The notes beneath the pieces were generated by a model. It had not been told where the DNA came from. It made no database searches and saw nothing but the letters and a program-made list of their open reading frames with translations. A program made the position numbers and the translations under genes. DNA of 64,000 bases from Gemmatimonas groenlandica. Lineage in GTDB: Bacteria; Gemmatimonadota; Gemmatimonadetes; Gemmatimonadales; Gemmatimonadaceae. Of the stretch, positions 5,983 to 58,154 are shown piece after piece. The stretch is taken from NCBI RefSeq assembly GCF_013004105.1, contig NZ_CP053085.1, positions 744,001-808,000 on the forward strand, given 5' to 3'. Every line of letters starts with the position of its first letter. Position 1 is the first letter of the stretch.

Positions 5983-7070
5983 GGGCGGAGGGTCCGGTGG
6001 AGGGAGGAGAGCAACGAGGCACCAAGCAGTTGCGGGCTCACATTGCCCTGTGCCTTGGCCTTCGCGAATTCAACAATGACCACCGCCGACGCGGTGCGTC
6101 GCGCGTCCGCCTCACGTCCGACATCGACCAACTGTTTGGCGCGTGCATGCAACAGATGCGTCAACGCCTCAAGGGTATCGGTGAATGCACCGCGCGCACC
6201 GGCTACGCCCTGACGCGCCGCGGCTTTGATGCGTTCGGCCGTGCCGTCCGGTGTGGACGGTTGCAACGCGGCGTCGAGAATACGCCGCGCCGCCGTGAAC
6301 GCCGCCGCCATCGATTCGCCAGCGAACAACTCGCCGGGTGCGCCATTCATCCGCGCCAGCGCTTCGTCGCGTGGAACGCGCGCGAGCTTGCGCACCACCA
6401 CCGCGTCGTCGAGAAACGCGTCGATGTCAGCGCGGCTGAGGGTGGGCACGCGTATCGCGACCACGCGCGACTTGATGGTGGGAAGCAGATTGCCCGGCTC
6501 GCTGGTGGTCAGAATGATCGTCGTGCCCGGCGGCGGCTCCTCGAGCAGCTTGAGAAAGGCGTTAGCCGCCTGATCGGCGCCTTCCTGCGACACCATGCGC
6601 TCGGCGTCGCCGACCACGAACACCGCCCGGCGCGCCATCGCCGGGCGTAGCGACGCCTGATGCACCAGCGCGCGCACGGTGGCGACATAGAGCCCCTCCG
6701 TACCGATCGAGGGCGCCCACAGCCCCTCCGCCTCCATGCGCTCGGCGATGGCCTCGCTGTAGTCCGCCTTCACGTCATCCGGCGACGCGTCGCCATCCTT
6801 GAGACGCGGACGCGGAAAGAACCAGTGCAGGTCGGGGTGCATGCCGCGCACGGTGTATCGGCAGTGCTGGCAGTCGCCGCACGGTTCGTCGAGGCGTTCC
6901 GACAGCGCCCGCTCGCAGAGCAGGTATTGTCCGAGCCAAAGTCCGAGGCGCTGCTTGCCGACACCGCGGCGACCTTGCAGCATGATGCTGGCCGGCAGCC
7001 GGTCATCGGCGGCCGCCGCCGTGAGCCGATGCCGCAGGGCGGCATGTCCGTAGAGCGGGCGAAGCGACAT
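5979..7070 (-). CDS. holB: DNA polymerase III delta-prime subunit
   Basis: 363 aa. This is the clamp-loader delta' subunit, an AAA+ ATPase-fold protein that helps load the sliding clamp. Visible are a P-loop-like GRRGVGKQ (33-40), the zinc-binding cysteines C52, C64, C67 and C70 (CGDCQHC), a region AVFVVGDAERM where Walker B sits, and TTSEPGNLLPTIKSR where the sensor and arginine-finger (SRC) motif lies, with SRV in place of SRC. The intact P-loop lysine is a departure from the degenerate P-loop of E. coli delta'. DnaX could look similar, but length and the missing C-terminal domains favour HolB. It is co-transcribed with moaC. Confidence 0.85.
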   Translation of the reverse strand: MSLRPLYGHAALRHRLTAAAADDRLPASIMLQGRRGVGKQRLGLWLGQYLLCERALSERLDEPCGDCQHCRYTVRGMHPDLHWFFPRPRLKDGDASPDDVKADYSEAIAERMEAEGLWAPSIGTEGLYVATVRALVHQASLRPAMARRAVFVVGDAERMVSQEGADQAANAFLKLLEEPPPGTTIILTTSEPGNLLPTIKSRVVAIRVPTLSRADIDAFLDDAVVVRKLARVPRDEALARMNGAPGELFAGESMAAAFTAARRILDAALQPSTPDGTAERIKAAARQGVAGARGAFTDTLEALTHLLHARAKQLVDVGREADARRTASAVVIVEFAKAKAQGNVSPQLLGASLLSSLHRTLRP

Positions 7071-11195: not shown

Positions 11196-14765
<3,570 letters not shown>

Positions 14766-15070: not shown

Positions 15071-16312
15071 TCAGGTCGGCTCGACGCCGGCAATGACGCG
15101 GAAGGTGTCGCGAGCGATCAACAGCTCTTCGTCGGTGGGCACCACCCACGCCGCGAGCGGGGACTCGTCGGTCGAGAAACGTCCCTCGCGACCATGTGTG
15201 AGCGCCTCGTTCGCCGTCGGGTCGACGTGCAGTCCGGCCCACTGCAGGCCGTCGCAGATCTGTCGGCGGATCTCGGGCGAGTTCTCTCCGACGCCGCCGG
15301 CAAACACGATGGCGTCGGCGCCCCCCATCGCGGCGAGATACGAGCCCACATACTTTCGCGCGCGATAGCAAAAAATGTCGATGGCCAGCTTCGCGCGACG
15401 ATCCTGATGCTCGTCCGCTTCGGCGAGCAGATCGCGCATATCGTTGGTGAGGCCGGAAATGCCGAGCAGTCCCGACTGGTTGTTCAGCAGCGCTTCGACC
15501 TGCGGCAGCGTGAGCCCTTCTTTCGCCGCGATGTAGTCCAGCAGTGCGGCGTCGATGTCACCGGAGCGTGTGCCCATCACGAGTCCTTCCAGCGGCGTAA
15601 AGCCCATGCTCGTGTCGATCGATGCGCCGCCCTTGATCGCGCAGGCTGAGCAGCCGTTGCCAAGATGCAGCGTCACGATGCGCACATCGGCGCGGTCGCG
15701 GCCGGTCAGTGTGCGCCAGCGATAGGCGATGGAACGGTGCGACGTGCCATGAAAGCCGTAGCGACGCACTTTGTGCCGACGGTAGAGCGGGTACGGAATC
15801 GCGTACAGGTAGGCGTGTTCCGGCAACGTGTGATGAAATGCCGTGTCGAACACCGCTACCTGCGGCACACCGCTGCCGAGCGCCGCACGCGCCGCTTCGA
15901 TGCCGCGGAGGTTGTGCGGATTGTGCAGCGGCGCGAGTTCGATCGTTTCCTCGATGCCGTGCAATACACTGCTGTCGATCGCGACGCTGCTGCGGAATCG
16001 CTCGCCGCCATGGACCACACGATGACCCACCGCGTGCAGTTCGCCGCGGCTGGTGAGGCCGGTACCGCTCTCTTCCGACGTGACGAACCCTACCAGCCAG
16101 TCGACTGCCGCGCGCAAATCGCGCAGCGATGCTGTGCGCTTGCGCGAGACACCGTCGGCACCGCGAATCGTGATGATCGACTCGCCGCCTATGCGCTCGA
16201 TCTGACCGCGGATCAGGCGCTCGTCACGGTCAGTATTGATCCGATCCGCGTCGGTGACGACCACCTGAAATTTCAGGGTCGCCGAGCCCACGTTGAGCAC
16301 GAGAATGTTCAC
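15071..16312 (-). CDS. ackA: Acetate kinase
   Basis: 413 aa. It interconverts acetyl phosphate plus ADP with acetate plus ATP in the cytoplasm. Family features in order are [11 protein letters not shown] at the N-terminus (the usual NxGSSSxK is altered to GSATLK), [12 protein letters not shown] with the substrate-binding Arg, [42 protein letters not shown], the phosphate loop [21 protein letters not shown] and [13 protein letters not shown]. No pta gene adjoins it, so the partner phosphotransacetylase or phosphoketolase must be elsewhere. The gene ends before the leftward met locus and starts next to a small membrane-protein gene. Confidence 0.96.
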
Positions 16313-52411: not shown

Positions 52412-53635
52412 TTACCGTTGCCCGCGCAGCCACTCCAACGGATCCACCGAGCGCCCCTTCGGGCGGATCTCGAAGTGCAGGTGCGGCGGCAGATCAGGGT
52501 CGGTCGCACCCACCGTGCCGATGGTCTGCCCCTTTGGAATCTGCTGCCCTTTCCGCACATCGATGCGAGAGAGCGAACCGTACACCGAGTAGTCACCACC
52601 GCCGTGCTGCACGATCACCGTAGGCCCGTACGTGCCGACGTTGTCGGCCAGTACGACTTCACCGGCGGCAATCGACTTCACGGCAGTGCCTACCGACGCG
52701 CCGATGCCGATGCCGTTCCAGCGGGTGGTCGTGTTGTTCGGATTGATCACGCGGCCGAAGCGATACAGAATCGTGCCGTCCACCGGCCAATCGAGTTTGC
52801 CGAGGTCCGACGTGCGAATGCTCGACGGTGCCGCCGGTCGAGCGTTCGGCGACATCTCGGCCCGGCGTCGTACCGTTTCGAGCGACGCAATGACGCCGGC
52901 CACCTTGGCTTCGTCGCGCGCCAACTGCGTGAGCCGCTCGCGCGTTTGGGTGGCGCTGCGCTGCACGGTCGTGAGATTGCGCTGACGCCGCGATTCGAGC
53001 TCGGCCAGCCGGCGCGCTTCCCGATCCTTTTCGGAACGGTTGCGCGCCACTTCATCCTGCAGGCGCACCAGCAGCAGTCGCTGTGAAATGATCTGATCGC
53101 GTAGTCCTTCCACGCGGCGCACGAGTCCGCGGTCGTGCAGCGCCAGCTCGTGCAGATACTTGTAGCGCGCCACAAGGCCGGCGAACGACTGGGCCGAGAG
53201 CATCGCTTCCACGTCGTACAGGCTACCGCGCTTGTAGATCTCGACCATGCGGCGCTGCAGCGCGGTACGCTTGTTCACCAGCTCACTCTCCGCCTTCACC
53301 AGGCCGGAGCCCGCCTTTACCACTTCGGTGTTGATGGTCTCAAGCTGCTGATCGAGGGCGCCAACCAGTCGCGCCGTCGCCTTCCGCTGCGCTTCAAGAT
53401 TGGTCACTTCATCGGAGAGCGTGCGCGCGCTGCGCTGCAGGTCGGCCATCTTCTTCTCGAGGTCGCTGCGTTCCTTTCGCAGCTTGTCGAGTTCGTCCTG
53501 TTGCTGTCGCAGGCGCTGTTCCGGTGCGCCGCTCGCTTGCGCGCGCGCGATGGTCGGCGTGCCGGCTATCGCAGCCCCCGTTACCGCTACTGCAAACGCG
53601 AACGCGACGACTGCGCGCACTACGCGTCGCGCCAC
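52412..53635 (-). CDS. envC: EnvC-like murein hydrolase activator (coiled coil + M23 LytM domain)
   Basis: 407 aa from GTG 53635; GTG 53620, which overlaps the ftsX stop in TAGTG, is an alternative. A signal peptide ends near TPTIARAQA. Residues ~30-270 are coiled coil (LRQQQDELDKLRKERSDLEK is the first). The LytM/M23 domain (~295-400) has DWPVDGTILYRFGRVINP, GIGIGASVGTAVKSIAAGEV, VIVQHGGGDYSVYGSL and DLPPHLHFEIRPKGRSVDP. The first zinc ligand His of active M23 peptidases (HxxxD) appears as GIGIGASVGT, so it is likely an inactive, activator-type domain. It follows ftsEX, the known transporter partner of EnvC. Confidence 0.92.
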   Translation of the reverse strand: MARRVVRAVVAFAFAVAVTGAAIAGTPTIARAQASGAPEQRLRQQQDELDKLRKERSDLEKKMADLQRSARTLSDEVTNLEAQRKATARLVGALDQQLETINTEVVKAGSGLVKAESELVNKRTALQRRMVEIYKRGSLYDVEAMLSAQSFAGLVARYKYLHELALHDRGLVRRVEGLRDQIISQRLLLVRLQDEVARNRSEKDREARRLAELESRRQRNLTTVQRSATQTRERLTQLARDEAKVAGVIASLETVRRRAEMSPNARPAAPSSIRTSDLGKLDWPVDGTILYRFGRVINPNNTTTRWNGIGIGASVGTAVKSIAAGEVVLADNVGTYGPTVIVQHGGGDYSVYGSLSRIDVRKGQQIPKGQTIGTVGATDPDLPPHLHFEIRPKGRSVDPLEWLRGQR

Positions 53636-54480
53636 ACGCGGCGCAGGTGACGACCCACCGAAAGCCAGCTCCCCACGAGGCCCAGCACGCCGCCGGCCGC
53701 GATCCCCAGCATGACTTGTTCGGCGTTGAAGAACTGCGCGGCCATGAGGTTCTTCGACACGAGCTGCACGGCCGTCCACGCCAGGGCTGCCGCGATCGCG
53801 CCACCGGCGAGCCCTTTGAGTGTTCCATCGATTAGGTAGGGCAGGCGCACGAAATTGTTCGTCGCGCCGACCAGTCGCATGATCTCGATTTCCTTGGTCC
53901 GCGCCAGGATGGCCATGCGGATCGTCGACCCGATGATGATGATCGCAACCAAGGCGAATACACTGCCGAGCACCGATCCGGCGATGCCCGCGATATTGCG
54001 AATGCGATAGAGCTTCTCCACCCACTCGCGACCGTAGCGCACTTCCTCGACCACCGGAAAGGTCTGCAGGCGCCGTGAAATCGTCTGTACCGTTTCGGGG
54101 TCGCGCGCACCTTCCTTCAGGCGAAGCTCCACCGAGCCGGGGAGCATCGCCCCTTCCATCACATCACGAAACTCTTCGAGCTCGGCGCGGGCGCGTTGCA
54201 GCGCCGAGTCGGGACTCACATAGCCCACGTCGGCGACCTGCGGGATCTTGTTGATCCCCTGCATCAACTCTTCCACCTGCGCGTCCTTCGCGCCGTCGAT
54301 CAAAAACGCGCGAATTTCCACGCGATCTTCGATTTCCAGCAGAGCCGATTTGATATTGATCGCGACCAGCCCGAACAGCCCGAACGCGAACAACGAGAAC
54401 GCAATCGTCGTCACGCCGAGCATCGCCAGGAGTGGGGCGCGCTTGAATGCCAGGAACACTTCTCGCATGGCGAGCCTCAT
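53620..54480 (-). CDS. ftsX: Cell division protein FtsX
   Basis: 286 aa. A short cytoplasmic N-terminus (MRLAMREVFLAFKRAP), TM1 (~20-42), a large periplasmic loop (~45-165, with FLIDGAKDAQVEELMQGINK), then three TM segments (~170-190, ~220-240, ~255-275) match FtsX. The periplasmic loop would recruit and activate EnvC on the outside of the membrane. Overlaps ftsE by 4 bp (ATGA) and the EnvC-like gene by 16 bp. Confidence 0.95.
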   Translation of the reverse strand: MRLAMREVFLAFKRAPLLAMLGVTTIAFSLFAFGLFGLVAINIKSALLEIEDRVEIRAFLIDGAKDAQVEELMQGINKIPQVADVGYVSPDSALQRARAELEEFRDVMEGAMLPGSVELRLKEGARDPETVQTISRRLQTFPVVEEVRYGREWVEKLYRIRNIAGIAGSVLGSVFALVAIIIIGSTIRMAILARTKEIEIMRLVGATNNFVRLPYLIDGTLKGLAGGAIAAALAWTAVQLVSKNLMAAQFFNAEQVMLGIAAGGVLGLVGSWLSVGRHLRRVWRDA

Positions 54481-55187
54481 CGGCGGCCTCGCATGTCGGC
54501 CAGCAGTCGCGCCACATCGGTGCCGTCGTGCACCAGCTCACCGTGGTCGAGCTCGAGAAAGCGCAGATTGGAGCGCTGGATCATCGCGACGTCGTGCGTG
54601 GCCATCAGCACGGCCGTGCCCTGTGCGTTGATCTCGCGCAACAGCAGAAAGATGGCGTGGGTGGCGCGGTCGTCGAGATTACCGGTGGGTTCGTCGGCCA
54701 GGAGGACAAACGGATCGTTCGCCAACGCGCGCGCAATCGCGACGCGCTGCTGTTCGCCGCCCGAGAGTTCGTGCGGAAACGCAGTGGCCTTCGAGGCCAG
54801 CCCGACTTGCGTGAGCAGTCGCGCCACCTTGGGGCGGATCTGCGCGTGCGGGGCCCCCGTCACTTCCAAGGCGAACGCGACGTTTTGTTCCGCGGTGCGA
54901 TCGGGCAACAACCGGAAATCCTGAAACACGATGCCCAGTCGGCGGCGAAGAATCGGAATCTCGCGCTGCTTGATCGAGAGGCTCGAAAAGCCCGAGATGC
55001 GCAGTTCACCCGTGGTCGGGCGCTCGGCCATCGACAACAGTTTCAGCAGCGTGCTCTTGCCGGCGCCACTGTGTCCCACCAGAAACACGAATTCACCTTT
55101 GCGCATCTCGAACGAGATGTCGCGCAGGGCGGCGCCTGAGCGGGGATACTCCTTGCTGACGTTTGTCAGGCGAAGAATGCCGGACAC
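54477..55187 (-). CDS. ftsE: Cell division ATP-binding protein FtsE
   Basis: 236 aa from GTG 55187, preceded by GGAG; a TTG at 55190 is one codon upstream. ABC ATPase: Walker A GHSGAGKSTLLKLL, Q-loop VFQDFRLLPDRTAEQNVAFA, signature LSGGEQQRVAIARAL, Walker B VLLADEPTGNLDD, H-loop ATHDVAMI. All are consistent with FtsE rather than an exporter. It follows the PLP-fold gene with no gap (that gene's TAG is at 55191-55193) and couples to ftsX, giving the FtsEX complex that controls murein hydrolysis at division. Confidence 0.96.
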   Translation of the reverse strand: MSGILRLTNVSKEYPRSGAALRDISFEMRKGEFVFLVGHSGAGKSTLLKLLSMAERPTTGELRISGFSSLSIKQREIPILRRRLGIVFQDFRLLPDRTAEQNVAFALEVTGAPHAQIRPKVARLLTQVGLASKATAFPHELSGGEQQRVAIARALANDPFVLLADEPTGNLDDRATHAIFLLLREINAQGTAVLMATHDVAMIQRSNLRFLELDHGELVHDGTDVARLLADMRGRR

Positions 55188-55190
55188 CAA

Positions 55191-56258
55191 CTACTCCAAT
55201 GCCTGAGTGAGATCGCCGATCAGTGTCGACGCATCGTCGAGTCCGATGTTGAGGCGGATCGATCCTTCGGGGAGGGCGCTCGCTACCGACTCGATGCCGC
55301 CCAGTCGCGCGGCGCGCTCCGCGTGGCGCACATGAAAGTGTTGCAGTCGGCCGAGCAGCTCGCCAACCGCCGCGTCGCCATCGCGCAGGGTGATCGACAT
55401 CAGGCTGCCGTACCCCGAGAAGCACTCGGCGGCCACCGCATGATCGGGATGCGAAGCGAGTGCGGGGTAGTGCACCGCGCTCACGGCACCGTTGGTGGCG
55501 GCGAATGCGGCCCCCCACTGCGCCACGTGCAGCGCCGAGCTGTTCTGCCGCGCGACCCGAACGCCGAGCGTCTTGAGTCCGCGGGCCAGATGCTCCTCAG
55601 CCGCTGGATGCGGCTCGGCGCCCCACGACCGCATTTTGGTGCGGACCTCGTCGATCACCGCGTCGCTGCCGCACACGACGCCGGAGAACCCGTCAGCATG
55701 ACCATCGAGGAACGCGCTGGCGGAGTGAAGCACCACATCGGCGCCGTGCTCGACGGGCCGAAAATTGATGGGACTCGCCAACGTCGCGTCGACCACCAGG
55801 GCGATCCCGAGCTCCTGAGCCAGCGTACGCACGGGGCGCATGTCCACGATGCGCGTACTCGGATCGACCGGCGACTCGAGATACACCAGGCGCGTCGTGC
55901 GCGTCAGGGAGCGGCGCCATCCACGCGTTTCGGTGGGATCGACGAAGCTCACCTGTACGCCGAGCGCCGGAAGTTCATGCTCGAAGAACCGGCGCGTCTC
56001 GGGACGCAGCCAGCGGCTCGCGAGCAGGTGATCACCGGGGCGGAGCAGGGAGACCATCGTACACGCCACGGCGGCCATGCCGCTGGCCAGTACCAGCGCC
56101 GACTCGGTCCGGTCCAGCTGCGCCAACTCACGCACGACCGAGTTGTCGGGCCGCCCGGGCACGAGGCCATCGGGCAGCCCGTCCGGGACGGGCAGCCCGT
56201 CGGGAAGGCCGTTCAACGGCATGGGGGGCATCGCGTCGATGTCACTCATGTCAGGCAC
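55191..56258 (-). CDS. Cys/Met-metabolism PLP-fold protein lacking the Schiff-base lysine (probable pseudoenzyme)
   Basis: 355 aa from GTG 56258 (ATG 56249 is also possible). The fold is clear: ALVLASGMAAVACTMVSLLR, LGIALVVDATLASPINFRPV (cofactor Asp kept), and C-terminal SIRLNIGLDDASTLIGDLTQ with the substrate-binding Arg. But the lysine motif HSATK is HSASA (residues 178-182; codon 55715-55713 is GCG), so no internal aldimine can form. The N-terminal ~50 residues that hold the tyrosine/arginine cofactor contacts are replaced by LPDGLPVPDGLPDGL repeats. A regulatory or binding role is likely. It lies immediately before ftsE. Confidence 0.85.
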   Translation of the reverse strand: MPDMSDIDAMPPMPLNGLPDGLPVPDGLPDGLVPGRPDNSVVRELAQLDRTESALVLASGMAAVACTMVSLLRPGDHLLASRWLRPETRRFFEHELPALGVQVSFVDPTETRGWRRSLTRTTRLVYLESPVDPSTRIVDMRPVRTLAQELGIALVVDATLASPINFRPVEHGADVVLHSASAFLDGHADGFSGVVCGSDAVIDEVRTKMRSWGAEPHPAAEEHLARGLKTLGVRVARQNSSALHVAQWGAAFAATNGAVSAVHYPALASHPDHAVAAECFSGYGSLMSITLRDGDAAVGELLGRLQHFHVRHAERAARLGGIESVASALPEGSIRLNIGLDDASTLIGDLTQALE

Positions 56259-56312: not shown

Positions 56313-56645
56313 TCAGACGCGCGTCCGGGAGTCGGTATCCAACTTGATCACGCGCACGAGTTCAGACGGAGCCGCCCCGACCACGTCCCGCAAAACACAC
56401 CCGCCGCGAGGCAAGGTGTCGTCGATCTGCAGCTCGGCCAGTTCAGAACGTCGATCCGATACCACACGCACCAGCTCGTGTCCCGTCACGAGACGCACCA
56501 GCGCATCGTCGGAGCGAAGGCGCACCATCGGGCCCCGTTCGGCGTCGCCGGGCTTGCTGCTGATGAAACCCACGACCTGCAACACCGGGGAGAACCCGCT
56601 GAACATCCCCAACTTTCGGGCCTTGGCCTTCTCGTCGTCGTTCAT
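56313..56645 (-). CDS. Unknown 110-aa protein with a dinucleotide-binding-like domain
   Basis: 110 aa from ATG 56645, overlapping the STAS-like gene by 4 bp (ATGA). After a polar helix (DDEKAKARKLGMFSGFSP) the sequence reads RLRSDDALVRLVTGHELVRV and LQIDDTLPRGGCVLRDVVGA. The spacing of a DA-type turn, VxV strand and LPxG resembles the C-terminal molybdopterin-dinucleotide-binding fold or a small beta-barrel domain. This is a weak resemblance only. It ends 54 bp before the PLP-fold gene. Confidence 0.6.
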   Translation of the reverse strand: MNDDEKAKARKLGMFSGFSPVLQVVGFISSKPGDAERGPMVRLRSDDALVRLVTGHELVRVVSDRRSELAELQIDDTLPRGGCVLRDVVGAAPSELVRVIKLDTDSRTRV

Positions 56646-57199
56646 GATGCCCTCGCCACGGTGCCGGGCACCGTGAAGCCGTCGTCGCGTCGCATGATCA
56701 ACCGGCGGACCCGCAGCCGGTCCAGCTGCTGGGCGGCAAACGCCTCGCTCACGGCCAGAATCGGCGCCAGCGCCTCGGCCCAGATCGGTCCGTGGTCGCG
56801 GACCGCTTCCCAGTGCGAACGCTCGTCGTCGTCCACATGGCCGAACAGTTCGGCCGCCCCCTCATGCCACGAGACCAACGCCAGCGCGTGACGTTCGAGG
56901 ACCGTCTCGATCGGATCGATATGGCCTTCGTGAATCCCGCGGAAGGTGAGGAATCCCGGCAGTCCGTCGTCGCTGGCGTAACGCAGCAGCAACTTGGCCA
57001 CGATCTCGTCGGCGCACGAGAAATCCAGCAGGTTCACCTGCGAGAAGTCGATCGTGGTGACCACAGACGCACCAAGCTCGAGGACCTGCTCCTCGATCGC
57101 CGTCCGGACGGCCGCGCCGGTCGGGCGGGTGACCAGATTCGAGTACAGGTCGCACACGGTGCCACGCAACACGGTCCCGACGTCGATGTTCACGGTCAT
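56642..57199 (-). CDS. STAS-domain-like regulatory protein
   Basis: 185 aa from ATG 57199, with GAGGGCGCG before it. The strand-helix pattern TIDFSQVNLLDFSCADEIVA is that of STAS/anti-sigma antagonist domains, where the segment following the second strand carries the phosphorylatable Ser (here LLDFSCADE). It lies 7 bp after the HATPase gene, the classic arrangement of partner-switching pairs. The C-terminal ~70 residues (SHWEAVRDHGPIWAEALAPI onward) are extra and helical. Confidence 0.7.
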   Translation of the reverse strand: MTVNIDVGTVLRGTVCDLYSNLVTRPTGAAVRTAIEEQVLELGASVVTTIDFSQVNLLDFSCADEIVAKLLLRYASDDGLPGFLTFRGIHEGHIDPIETVLERHALALVSWHEGAAELFGHVDDDERSHWEAVRDHGPIWAEALAPILAVSEAFAAQQLDRLRVRRLIMRRDDGFTVPGTVARAS

Positions 57200-57206
57200 C
57201 GCGCCC

Positions 57207-58154
57207 TCACAGCGTGCCCCGCGGGCGCGCACGTGACGCACCGGCGCTGCGGGCCCGCACGGGCGCCTCACCGAGGCGTTCGGGGATCGTGACCTGCATC
57301 TGCGCACCGGGGAAGAACGGAAGTCCCTCCGTCATCGGGACATCTTCATCCCAGTCCGGCGTGATGGCGATGCGGGCGGCGCCGCTGCGCACCGACAACT
57401 TCCCGTCCCACCGACCGACGAAGCGACGAATGCCCGCCAGACCTTGGCCGCGTCCCTTGTCGCCATGACGGAAGCGGCTGACCGCGCGCAGCACGGCATC
57501 TTCAAGCGCCATCGCGTCATCCCAGCGGTCGCTGCGCCGATGTCCCGGCGAACTCTCGAGTGATTTGCGGAAGCCGACACCGGCATCGCACACCGCGATC
57601 ACCACCACACGGCGACCGAGTCGGCGCGCGTACTTGTACGTTTGCACGGCCACCCAGCCACCAAGGCCGGCATGCTCCACGATGTTCTGACACGCTTCAC
57701 TCAGCGTCATACCGAAGGCGCCGGTGATGGCGGTATCGAGATTCAGCTGGCCGTGCAGAATGTCGGCGGCCTTCTGCTGGATGCGGCCCACCACCCCGTG
57801 CACGTCGTCGCTTTTGGTGATCGGCGTAATCTCGAGCAGCACATCCGACTCATGTGCGTCACGCGCGCGCGGCACAGTCCCATGCATGTCGTACAACTCG
57901 GCCGCATGACGGAAGAATCCCGTGCGCGACCAGTAGGACACCGTGTCGGCATGTTCGGGCACCGCGAATCCCATGCGGTCGGCGCGTGATTGCGCGACGC
58001 AGAGCAGCGCCGTCAGTCCGTAGGGCGAGGCCCATCGCGCATGACGGGCGTCGACCAGGATCTTGTCACCTTCGGGGACCAACGCCAGCTGCTCGAAGAC
58101 TTGCTCGAAGCTGTGTTCATCGAGTGATGGCGGTACGCTGATGACAGACGTCAC
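57207..58154 (-). CDS. STAS-like + HATPase protein (partner-switching kinase type)
   Basis: 315 aa from ATG 58154, overlapping the PfkB gene (ATGA). Residues ~1-115 look like a MlaB/STAS-type alpha/beta domain (ILVDARHARWASPYGLTALL). The HATPase domain (~125-300) has the N-box TLSEACQNIVEHAGLGGWVA, G1 VCDAGVGFRKSL, and G2 region GQGLAGIRRFVGRWDGKLS. It lacks a histidine kinase phosphoacceptor, so it resembles RsbW/RsbT-type Ser kinases that phosphorylate a STAS partner. The next gene is such a STAS-like protein. The sigma factor or output target is not in this window. Confidence 0.78.
   Translation of the reverse strand: MTSVISVPPSLDEHSFEQVFEQLALVPEGDKILVDARHARWASPYGLTALLCVAQSRADRMGFAVPEHADTVSYWSRTGFFRHAAELYDMHGTVPRARDAHESDVLLEITPITKSDDVHGVVGRIQQKAADILHGQLNLDTAITGAFGMTLSEACQNIVEHAGLGGWVAVQTYKYARRLGRRVVVIAVCDAGVGFRKSLESSPGHRRSDRWDDAMALEDAVLRAVSRFRHGDKGRGQGLAGIRRFVGRWDGKLSVRSGAARIAITPDWDEDVPMTEGLPFFPGAQMQVTIPERLGEAPVRARSAGASRARPRGTL

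Follow-up and report, generated by a model that had tools for sequence, protein, structure and literature searches.

Enzymes of cysteine and methionine metabolism that depend on PLP have active sites in which the roles of the individual residues are well established, and in the members of the PF01053 family a tyrosine and an arginine on the N-terminal arm complete the active site of the neighboring subunit. Proteins of PLP-enzyme families can also act without catalysis, as the serine palmitoyltransferase subunit Lcb1 and antizyme inhibitor do; both are eukaryotic, act by binding a partner, and have an established function. A further example is TSB-like, a pseudoenzyme that arose from the tryptophan synthase beta subunit with two key residue changes and for which both the partner, TSA, and the function have been shown (PMC12727527). 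Genetic work in Caulobacter has assigned to the citrate synthase CitA a control over the cell cycle that is independent of its activity (PMC7083601). Among the papers searched, none joined Gemmatimonas and ftsE or described the pseudoenzyme analyzed here, and nothing relevant came up for a cystathionine-family gene with ftsEX. As precedents exist both for a pseudoenzyme derived from a PLP enzyme (PMC12727527) and for enzyme-independent cell cycle control (PMC7083601), the kind of protein is already known, and the case itself is new.

The gene lies in a 64,000-nucleotide stretch of the Gemmatimonas groenlandica chromosome (NZ_CP053085.1, positions 744,001 to 808,000), referred to here as the window, whose source genome is a single contig of 5.18 Mb from a Gemmatimonas-type genus. 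It is read on the minus strand from 56258 to 55191, with a GTG start, a TAG stop, and an intact frame of 355 amino acids. Pfam Cys_Met_Meta_PP (PF01053) matches residues 42 to 354 (E = 8.5e-72; 242.2 bits, the cut-off being 27), and the AlphaFold2 model (pLDDT 90.7, with low confidence over the first 35 to 40 residues) matches methionine gamma-lyase (MGL) 5dx5 over its whole length (VIA-align Z 43.5; 316 residues aligned). The score above the gathering cut-off and the whole-length fold together place the protein in the family by sequence and by structure. The NCBIfam equivalogs within the family (e.g., PRK08249, TIGR01325, and TIGR01328) do not reach their cut-offs, the best score being 232.8 bits against 600.

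Directly downstream, on the same strand, is ftsE (54477 to 55190; TIGR02673, 285 bits against a cut-off of 264.85). Its start may be a TTG at 55190, immediately following the pseudoenzyme stop codon, or a GTG one codon further on. A GGAG within the last pseudoenzyme codons is a candidate ribosome-binding site for it. Then follow, also on the minus strand, ftsX (53620 to 54480; Pfam FtsX and FtsX_ECD, with TIGR00439 at 220.7 bits, below the cut-off of 255), a protein with a peptidase domain (52412 to 54025; Pfam Peptidase_M23) that is EnvC-like by its conserved position downstream of ftsX, and a gene named from its sequence as endonuclease-IV-like. Directly upstream of the pseudoenzyme, a gene for 110 amino acids (56313 to 56645, minus strand), with a weak Pfam Molydop_binding match below cut-off, is seen by gene-order comparison to be conserved in one family of the order (f1).

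Active-site residues were numbered by alignment to Pseudomonas putida MGL, in which the two numberings differ by 29 throughout, as far as the lysine. The family motif HSATK reads HSASA in the window protein (H178, S179, A180, S181, and A182), and the position of the catalytic Lys211 is occupied by codon 182, GCG for alanine (55713 to 55715, minus strand), as seen in the DNA, its translation, and the alignment. Arginine stands for Tyr114 (residue 85) and in the Ser340 column, aspartate for Asn161 (residue 132), and serine for Thr210 (residue 181); of this second set, Ser208 alone is kept in the window (Ser179), and the loss is clade-wide. The arm tyrosine and arginine (Y50 and R52 in A2 numbering) are missing together with the arm, and the Schiff-base lysine of the (H/S)S(A/T)TK motif is replaced in 26 genomes of the genus. 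What remains is the cofactor aspartate (Asp157, for Asp186), which is invariant, and the carboxylate-binding arginine (Arg335, for Arg375), which is kept in at least 90% of 63 sequences. These two residues, the second of them in most copies, and the fold could be taken to mean that the protein is still an enzyme, acting through another residue or through a reaction independent of the Schiff-base lysine. However, Lys211, Tyr114, Asn161, Ser208, Thr210, Ser340, and the arm have no conserved replacement, and the lysine column holds 10 different residues across the genus (A, L, M, R, T, V, G, H, E, and F), which leaves this reading scarcely credible.

The preliminary description of this DNA had reported the coordinates, the missing lysine, the surviving aspartate, arginine, fold, and frame, and the stop abutting ftsE, all of which our analysis bears out. 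It had also described the N-terminal cofactor-binding part as replaced by DGLP repeats, and here the account has to change. The nearest relatives begin with MPPMP and pass directly into (T)DNSV and the first helix without any such repeats; comparison of the N termini thus indicates that the arm was deleted and that DGLP is a small tandem insertion, added later and in the window genome only. The first 35 residues (56154 to 56258, minus strand) would then be the remainder after the arm deletion plus this insertion, and they are predicted to be disordered (pLDDT 41 to 60 over residues 1 to 40). The repeats were considered as a new domain and rejected as such, since the closest relatives lack them.

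The loss extends well beyond the window. The lysine column is non-lysine in 26 of the 30 genomes of the genus. Of the remaining four, one incomplete genome (G003) yielded neither the gene nor ftsE. In two others (G028 and G012) ftsE is present and the gene is missing beside it, and one basal genome on a short branch (G007) keeps the lysine in HSATKYLNG, its contig beginning within the gene. In the same ftsE slot of other genera of the order, 49 of 50 copies keep the lysine, and the active-site tyrosine, arginine, asparagine, aspartate, serine, and threonine are invariant among 37 aligned live relatives outside the genus. The expectation attached to the first description, that a normal HSATK in the same operon of relatives would mark the change as strain specific, is therefore borne out in its first half only: outside the genus, the relatives do have a lysine motif, be it HSATK or its equivalent, but the loss is a property of the genus, and both a strain-specific mutation and a sequencing error were rejected on that ground.

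Phylogeny groups the copies of the genus into one clade (100/100) nested within the enzymes of its family. A lysine-less copy from a different genus within that family (G134, contig L090) reads HAEATSLSG, has also lost the arm, and lies 120 bp upstream of ftsE; it is probably a second, independent loss. In the approximately unbiased (AU) test, a single clade of the non-lysine rows of the genus gave p 0.53, and a single clade that included G134 gave p 0.06. One event fits the losses within the genus, and G134 looks independent, though not firmly so; a single event for all losses, G134 included, is accordingly doubtful. One dead copy (G026, contig L139) is extremely diverged, with about 43% identity and an end branch of 1.84, and it is still open and beside ftsE.

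A retained but inactive protein should be distinguishable from a decaying gene, and the pattern of substitutions supports the former. Pooled over seven close pairs, dN/dS is 0.147 (0.125 to 0.170); single pairs give 0.06 to 0.28, with an upper limit of at most 0.41 in 13 of 13 pairs, against means of 0.81 to 1.17 in neutral simulations. Under neutrality, 0.2 substitutions per site would be enough to introduce a stop into 97% of copies, and the frames of the genus are open. The low dN/dS and the open frames reject a neutral pseudogene, and the loss of catalytic residues under purifying selection at the protein level defines a pseudoenzyme, so that the retention of a dead PLP-fold protein, as first proposed, is upheld by the genus-wide lysine loss, the wider dismantling of the active site, and this selection.

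Selection is not evenly spread along the protein. By region, dN/dS is 0.098 for residues 42 to 178, 0.124 for the lysine loop, and 0.222 for residues 240 to 355. When conservation in dead copies is divided by that in live enzymes from their own family, the ratio is close to 1 for residues 53 to 178 and for 197 to 212, about half in the loop at 181 to 196, and between 0.16 and 0.44 at residues 277 to 340. The sequences thus indicate that constraint is kept in the large-domain half (residues 42 to 212, encoded at 55623 to 56135 on the minus strand), where most segments have a ratio near 1 except the active-site loop, and is largely lost in that loop and in the C-terminal half. The rate of evolution, expressed as a multiple of that of FtsE, is 3.9 for the dead protein and 1.16 for the live enzymes; this roughly 3.3-fold acceleration relative to ftsE means that part of the constraint is gone. 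Four residues, A54, V56, L96, and E149, vary among the enzymes but not among the dead copies, which hints at a new constraint.

Natural deletions bear on what is being retained. Five lineages with ftsEX (G028, G012, the g31 genomes G083 and G122, G043, and G136) lack the gene beside ftsE; a protein obligatorily associated with FtsEX would be kept wherever ftsEX is kept, and these absences mark the present one as accessory, with a dispensable role. In the close relative G028 (contig L140, reverse strand, about 6177 to 6280), with an FtsE that is 95% identical, both ftsE and the upstream gene persist, and an in-frame remnant of 33 codons, VSAVVYPGLATHPEPIGLKDASIRIGDLTQALE, lies between them. It reads as two joined pieces of the protein, ends next to ftsE in the codons that also end the full gene, and would represent a natural near-complete deletion; the assembly is 57% complete and the join is provisional.

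Such a remnant invites the view that the gene is a relic acting as a translational leader, in which a redundant enzyme is on its way out and the reading frame survives chiefly for the sake of ftsE, into which ribosomes would be fed by translation of the frame and by its last codons with their GGAG. The G028 remnant, the slot losses in several other lineages, the faster evolution with a weakly constrained C-terminal half, and the stop and ftsE start that abut or nearly do so in almost all copies of the genus would all be accommodated. A leader, however, needs only an open frame, yet dN/dS at residues 42 to 178 and at 240 to 355 lies far under the neutral simulations; moreover, about 1.1 kb separates the enzyme gene from ftsE in some lineages, and in others the gene is lost outright. 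The leader fits G028, and the conservation at the protein level means that a pure leader does not fit elsewhere, so that we consider this explanation unlikely, if still worth weighing.

The history of the operon changes how the position before ftsE can be read. The order pfkB-like, HATPase, STAS-like, enzyme, ftsE, ftsX, and M23 peptidase, with the 110-amino-acid gene before the enzyme in f1 only, is common to the three families of the order. Outside the order, 22 genomes representing six further families of the class and phylum were examined, and none has the enzyme upstream of ftsE. As the slot is held by a live enzyme elsewhere in the order, the protein did not enter a division operon but died there, and adjacency inherited from an ordinary enzyme is weak evidence for a role in division. 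Upstream of ftsE in the window (56313 to 58154), the HATPase-domain protein, the STAS-like protein (no Pfam hit), and the f1 protein of 110 amino acids stand in an order conserved across the taxonomic order, and this set beside ftsEX could possibly form a partner-switch module. In some of L070 (G031), L089 (G113), L100 (G087), and L135 (G073), an automatic measure found extra DNA of about 1.1 to 1.2 kb between the enzyme gene and ftsE.

It could be speculated that the dead protein is a dedicated regulator of FtsEX or of division, binding cytoplasmic FtsE or FtsX and sensing PLP or the state of the sulfur amino acids. The conserved slot directly before ftsE, the conserved fold and Asp157, a family-typical R112-x-W114-R115 on a helix, and the greater conservation of A54, V56, L96, and E149 in the dead clade than in enzymes would be in keeping with this, as would the Caulobacter precedent for enzyme-independent cell cycle control by a metabolic enzyme (PMC7083601). 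Against it, the adjacency is inherited, several lineages retain ftsEX with no such gene before it, and no comparable ftsE-linked gene was found in the 22 genomes of other orders. In addition, about half of the dead clade, by sequence weight, has aspartate in the phosphate-pocket Ser208 column, which speaks against a conserved PLP pocket or PLP-sensing role. Such a regulator is therefore improbable, and the sensor or scaffold for cell division suggested in the preliminary description finds no direct support. A more specific form, in which a genus-specific cytoplasmic regulator would bind FtsE through a conserved large-domain surface (R112-W114-R115-R116 and E149) and, without catalysis, couple septal peptidoglycan hydrolysis to sulfur-amino-acid metabolism, is a long shot.

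Placed into metabolic context, the loss of the active site becomes easier to understand. The window itself encodes a canonical O-acetylhomoserine sulfhydrylase that keeps its lysine (HSATKW; 13313 to 14704; TIGR01326, 629 bits against a cut-off of 495), near which lies an acetate-kinase-family gene (15071 to 16312). The same genome also has an O-succinylhomoserine-sulfhydrylase-like (OSHS-like) copy, a copy resembling cystathionine gamma-synthase or gamma-lyase (CGS/CGL-like), and a PRK07582 CGL. Genomes of the genus hold 2 to 7 PF01053 members, mostly 4 to 7; in the order's other two families there are often only two per genome, one of them beside ftsE. The OSHS-like paralogue is found in 27 of 30 genomes of the genus, counting one in which it is a fragment with 91% identity, and few genomes outside the genus carry it. 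It is absent from two genomes with a dead copy (G008 and G019) and from G134, and several genomes that have it keep the lysine. A strict swap, with gain of this paralogue as the cause of lysine loss, was rejected as the match is not one to one; the paralogue was at most permissive. Backup enzymes plausibly allowed the lysine to be lost.

Taken together, we think it probable that the window gene encodes a retained pseudoenzyme with a non-catalytic role exerted through its folded large domain, accessory in nature and occupying an inherited operon slot. Most of the order has a canonical lysine-bearing CGS/MGL-like enzyme in the ftsE slot, and at or near the base of the genus the N-terminal arm, the lysine, and the surrounding active site were lost. 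The large-domain core remained under purifying selection, with the C-terminal domain and the active-site loop free to drift, and the loss may have been tolerated owing to other lysine-bearing sulfur-amino-acid enzymes in the genus. The survivor could act without catalysis as a binding partner or scaffold, its likeliest partners being further copies of itself, which would give a homo-oligomer, or active paralogues, for instance the O-acetyl- or O-succinylhomoserine sulfhydrylases, in the manner of pseudoenzymes that modulate active relatives. It would be translated with ftsE as an accessory protein and not as an obligatory part of FtsEX.

The locus thus catches the change from enzyme to pseudoenzyme within one genus and in a fixed operon slot. 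The series at hand comprises the ancestral enzyme, a basal copy with lysine (G007), numerous dead copies, what is probably a second loss in another genus (G134), and a deletion of nearly the whole gene (G028), which makes the reason for keeping a dead enzyme directly testable, as selection protects one half of the fold and offers sites to mutate. It also carries a warning that the ftsE-linked gene in this genus should not be annotated as cystathionine gamma-synthase.

Compared with MGL, CGS/CGL, and the O-acyl-homoserine sulfhydrylases, the window protein shares the whole-length fold, the sequence family, the cofactor aspartate, and the C-terminal arginine, but differs in lacking the catalytic lysine, the Tyr114/Asn161/Thr210 set, and the N-terminal arm, and in its weakly constrained C-terminal half. 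Like Lcb1 and antizyme inhibitor it is a PLP-family protein predicted to act without catalysis, although the subfamilies are unrelated. TSB-like belongs to a different PLP fold type. It offers a parallel as a PLP-enzyme paralogue that does not catalyze and is retained for a non-catalytic function (PMC12727527), but in the window protein the whole active site is lost and the partner is putative. With CitA the window protein shares a metabolic fold and, possibly, a part in the cell cycle that does not depend on catalysis, the link in our case being drawn from genome position.
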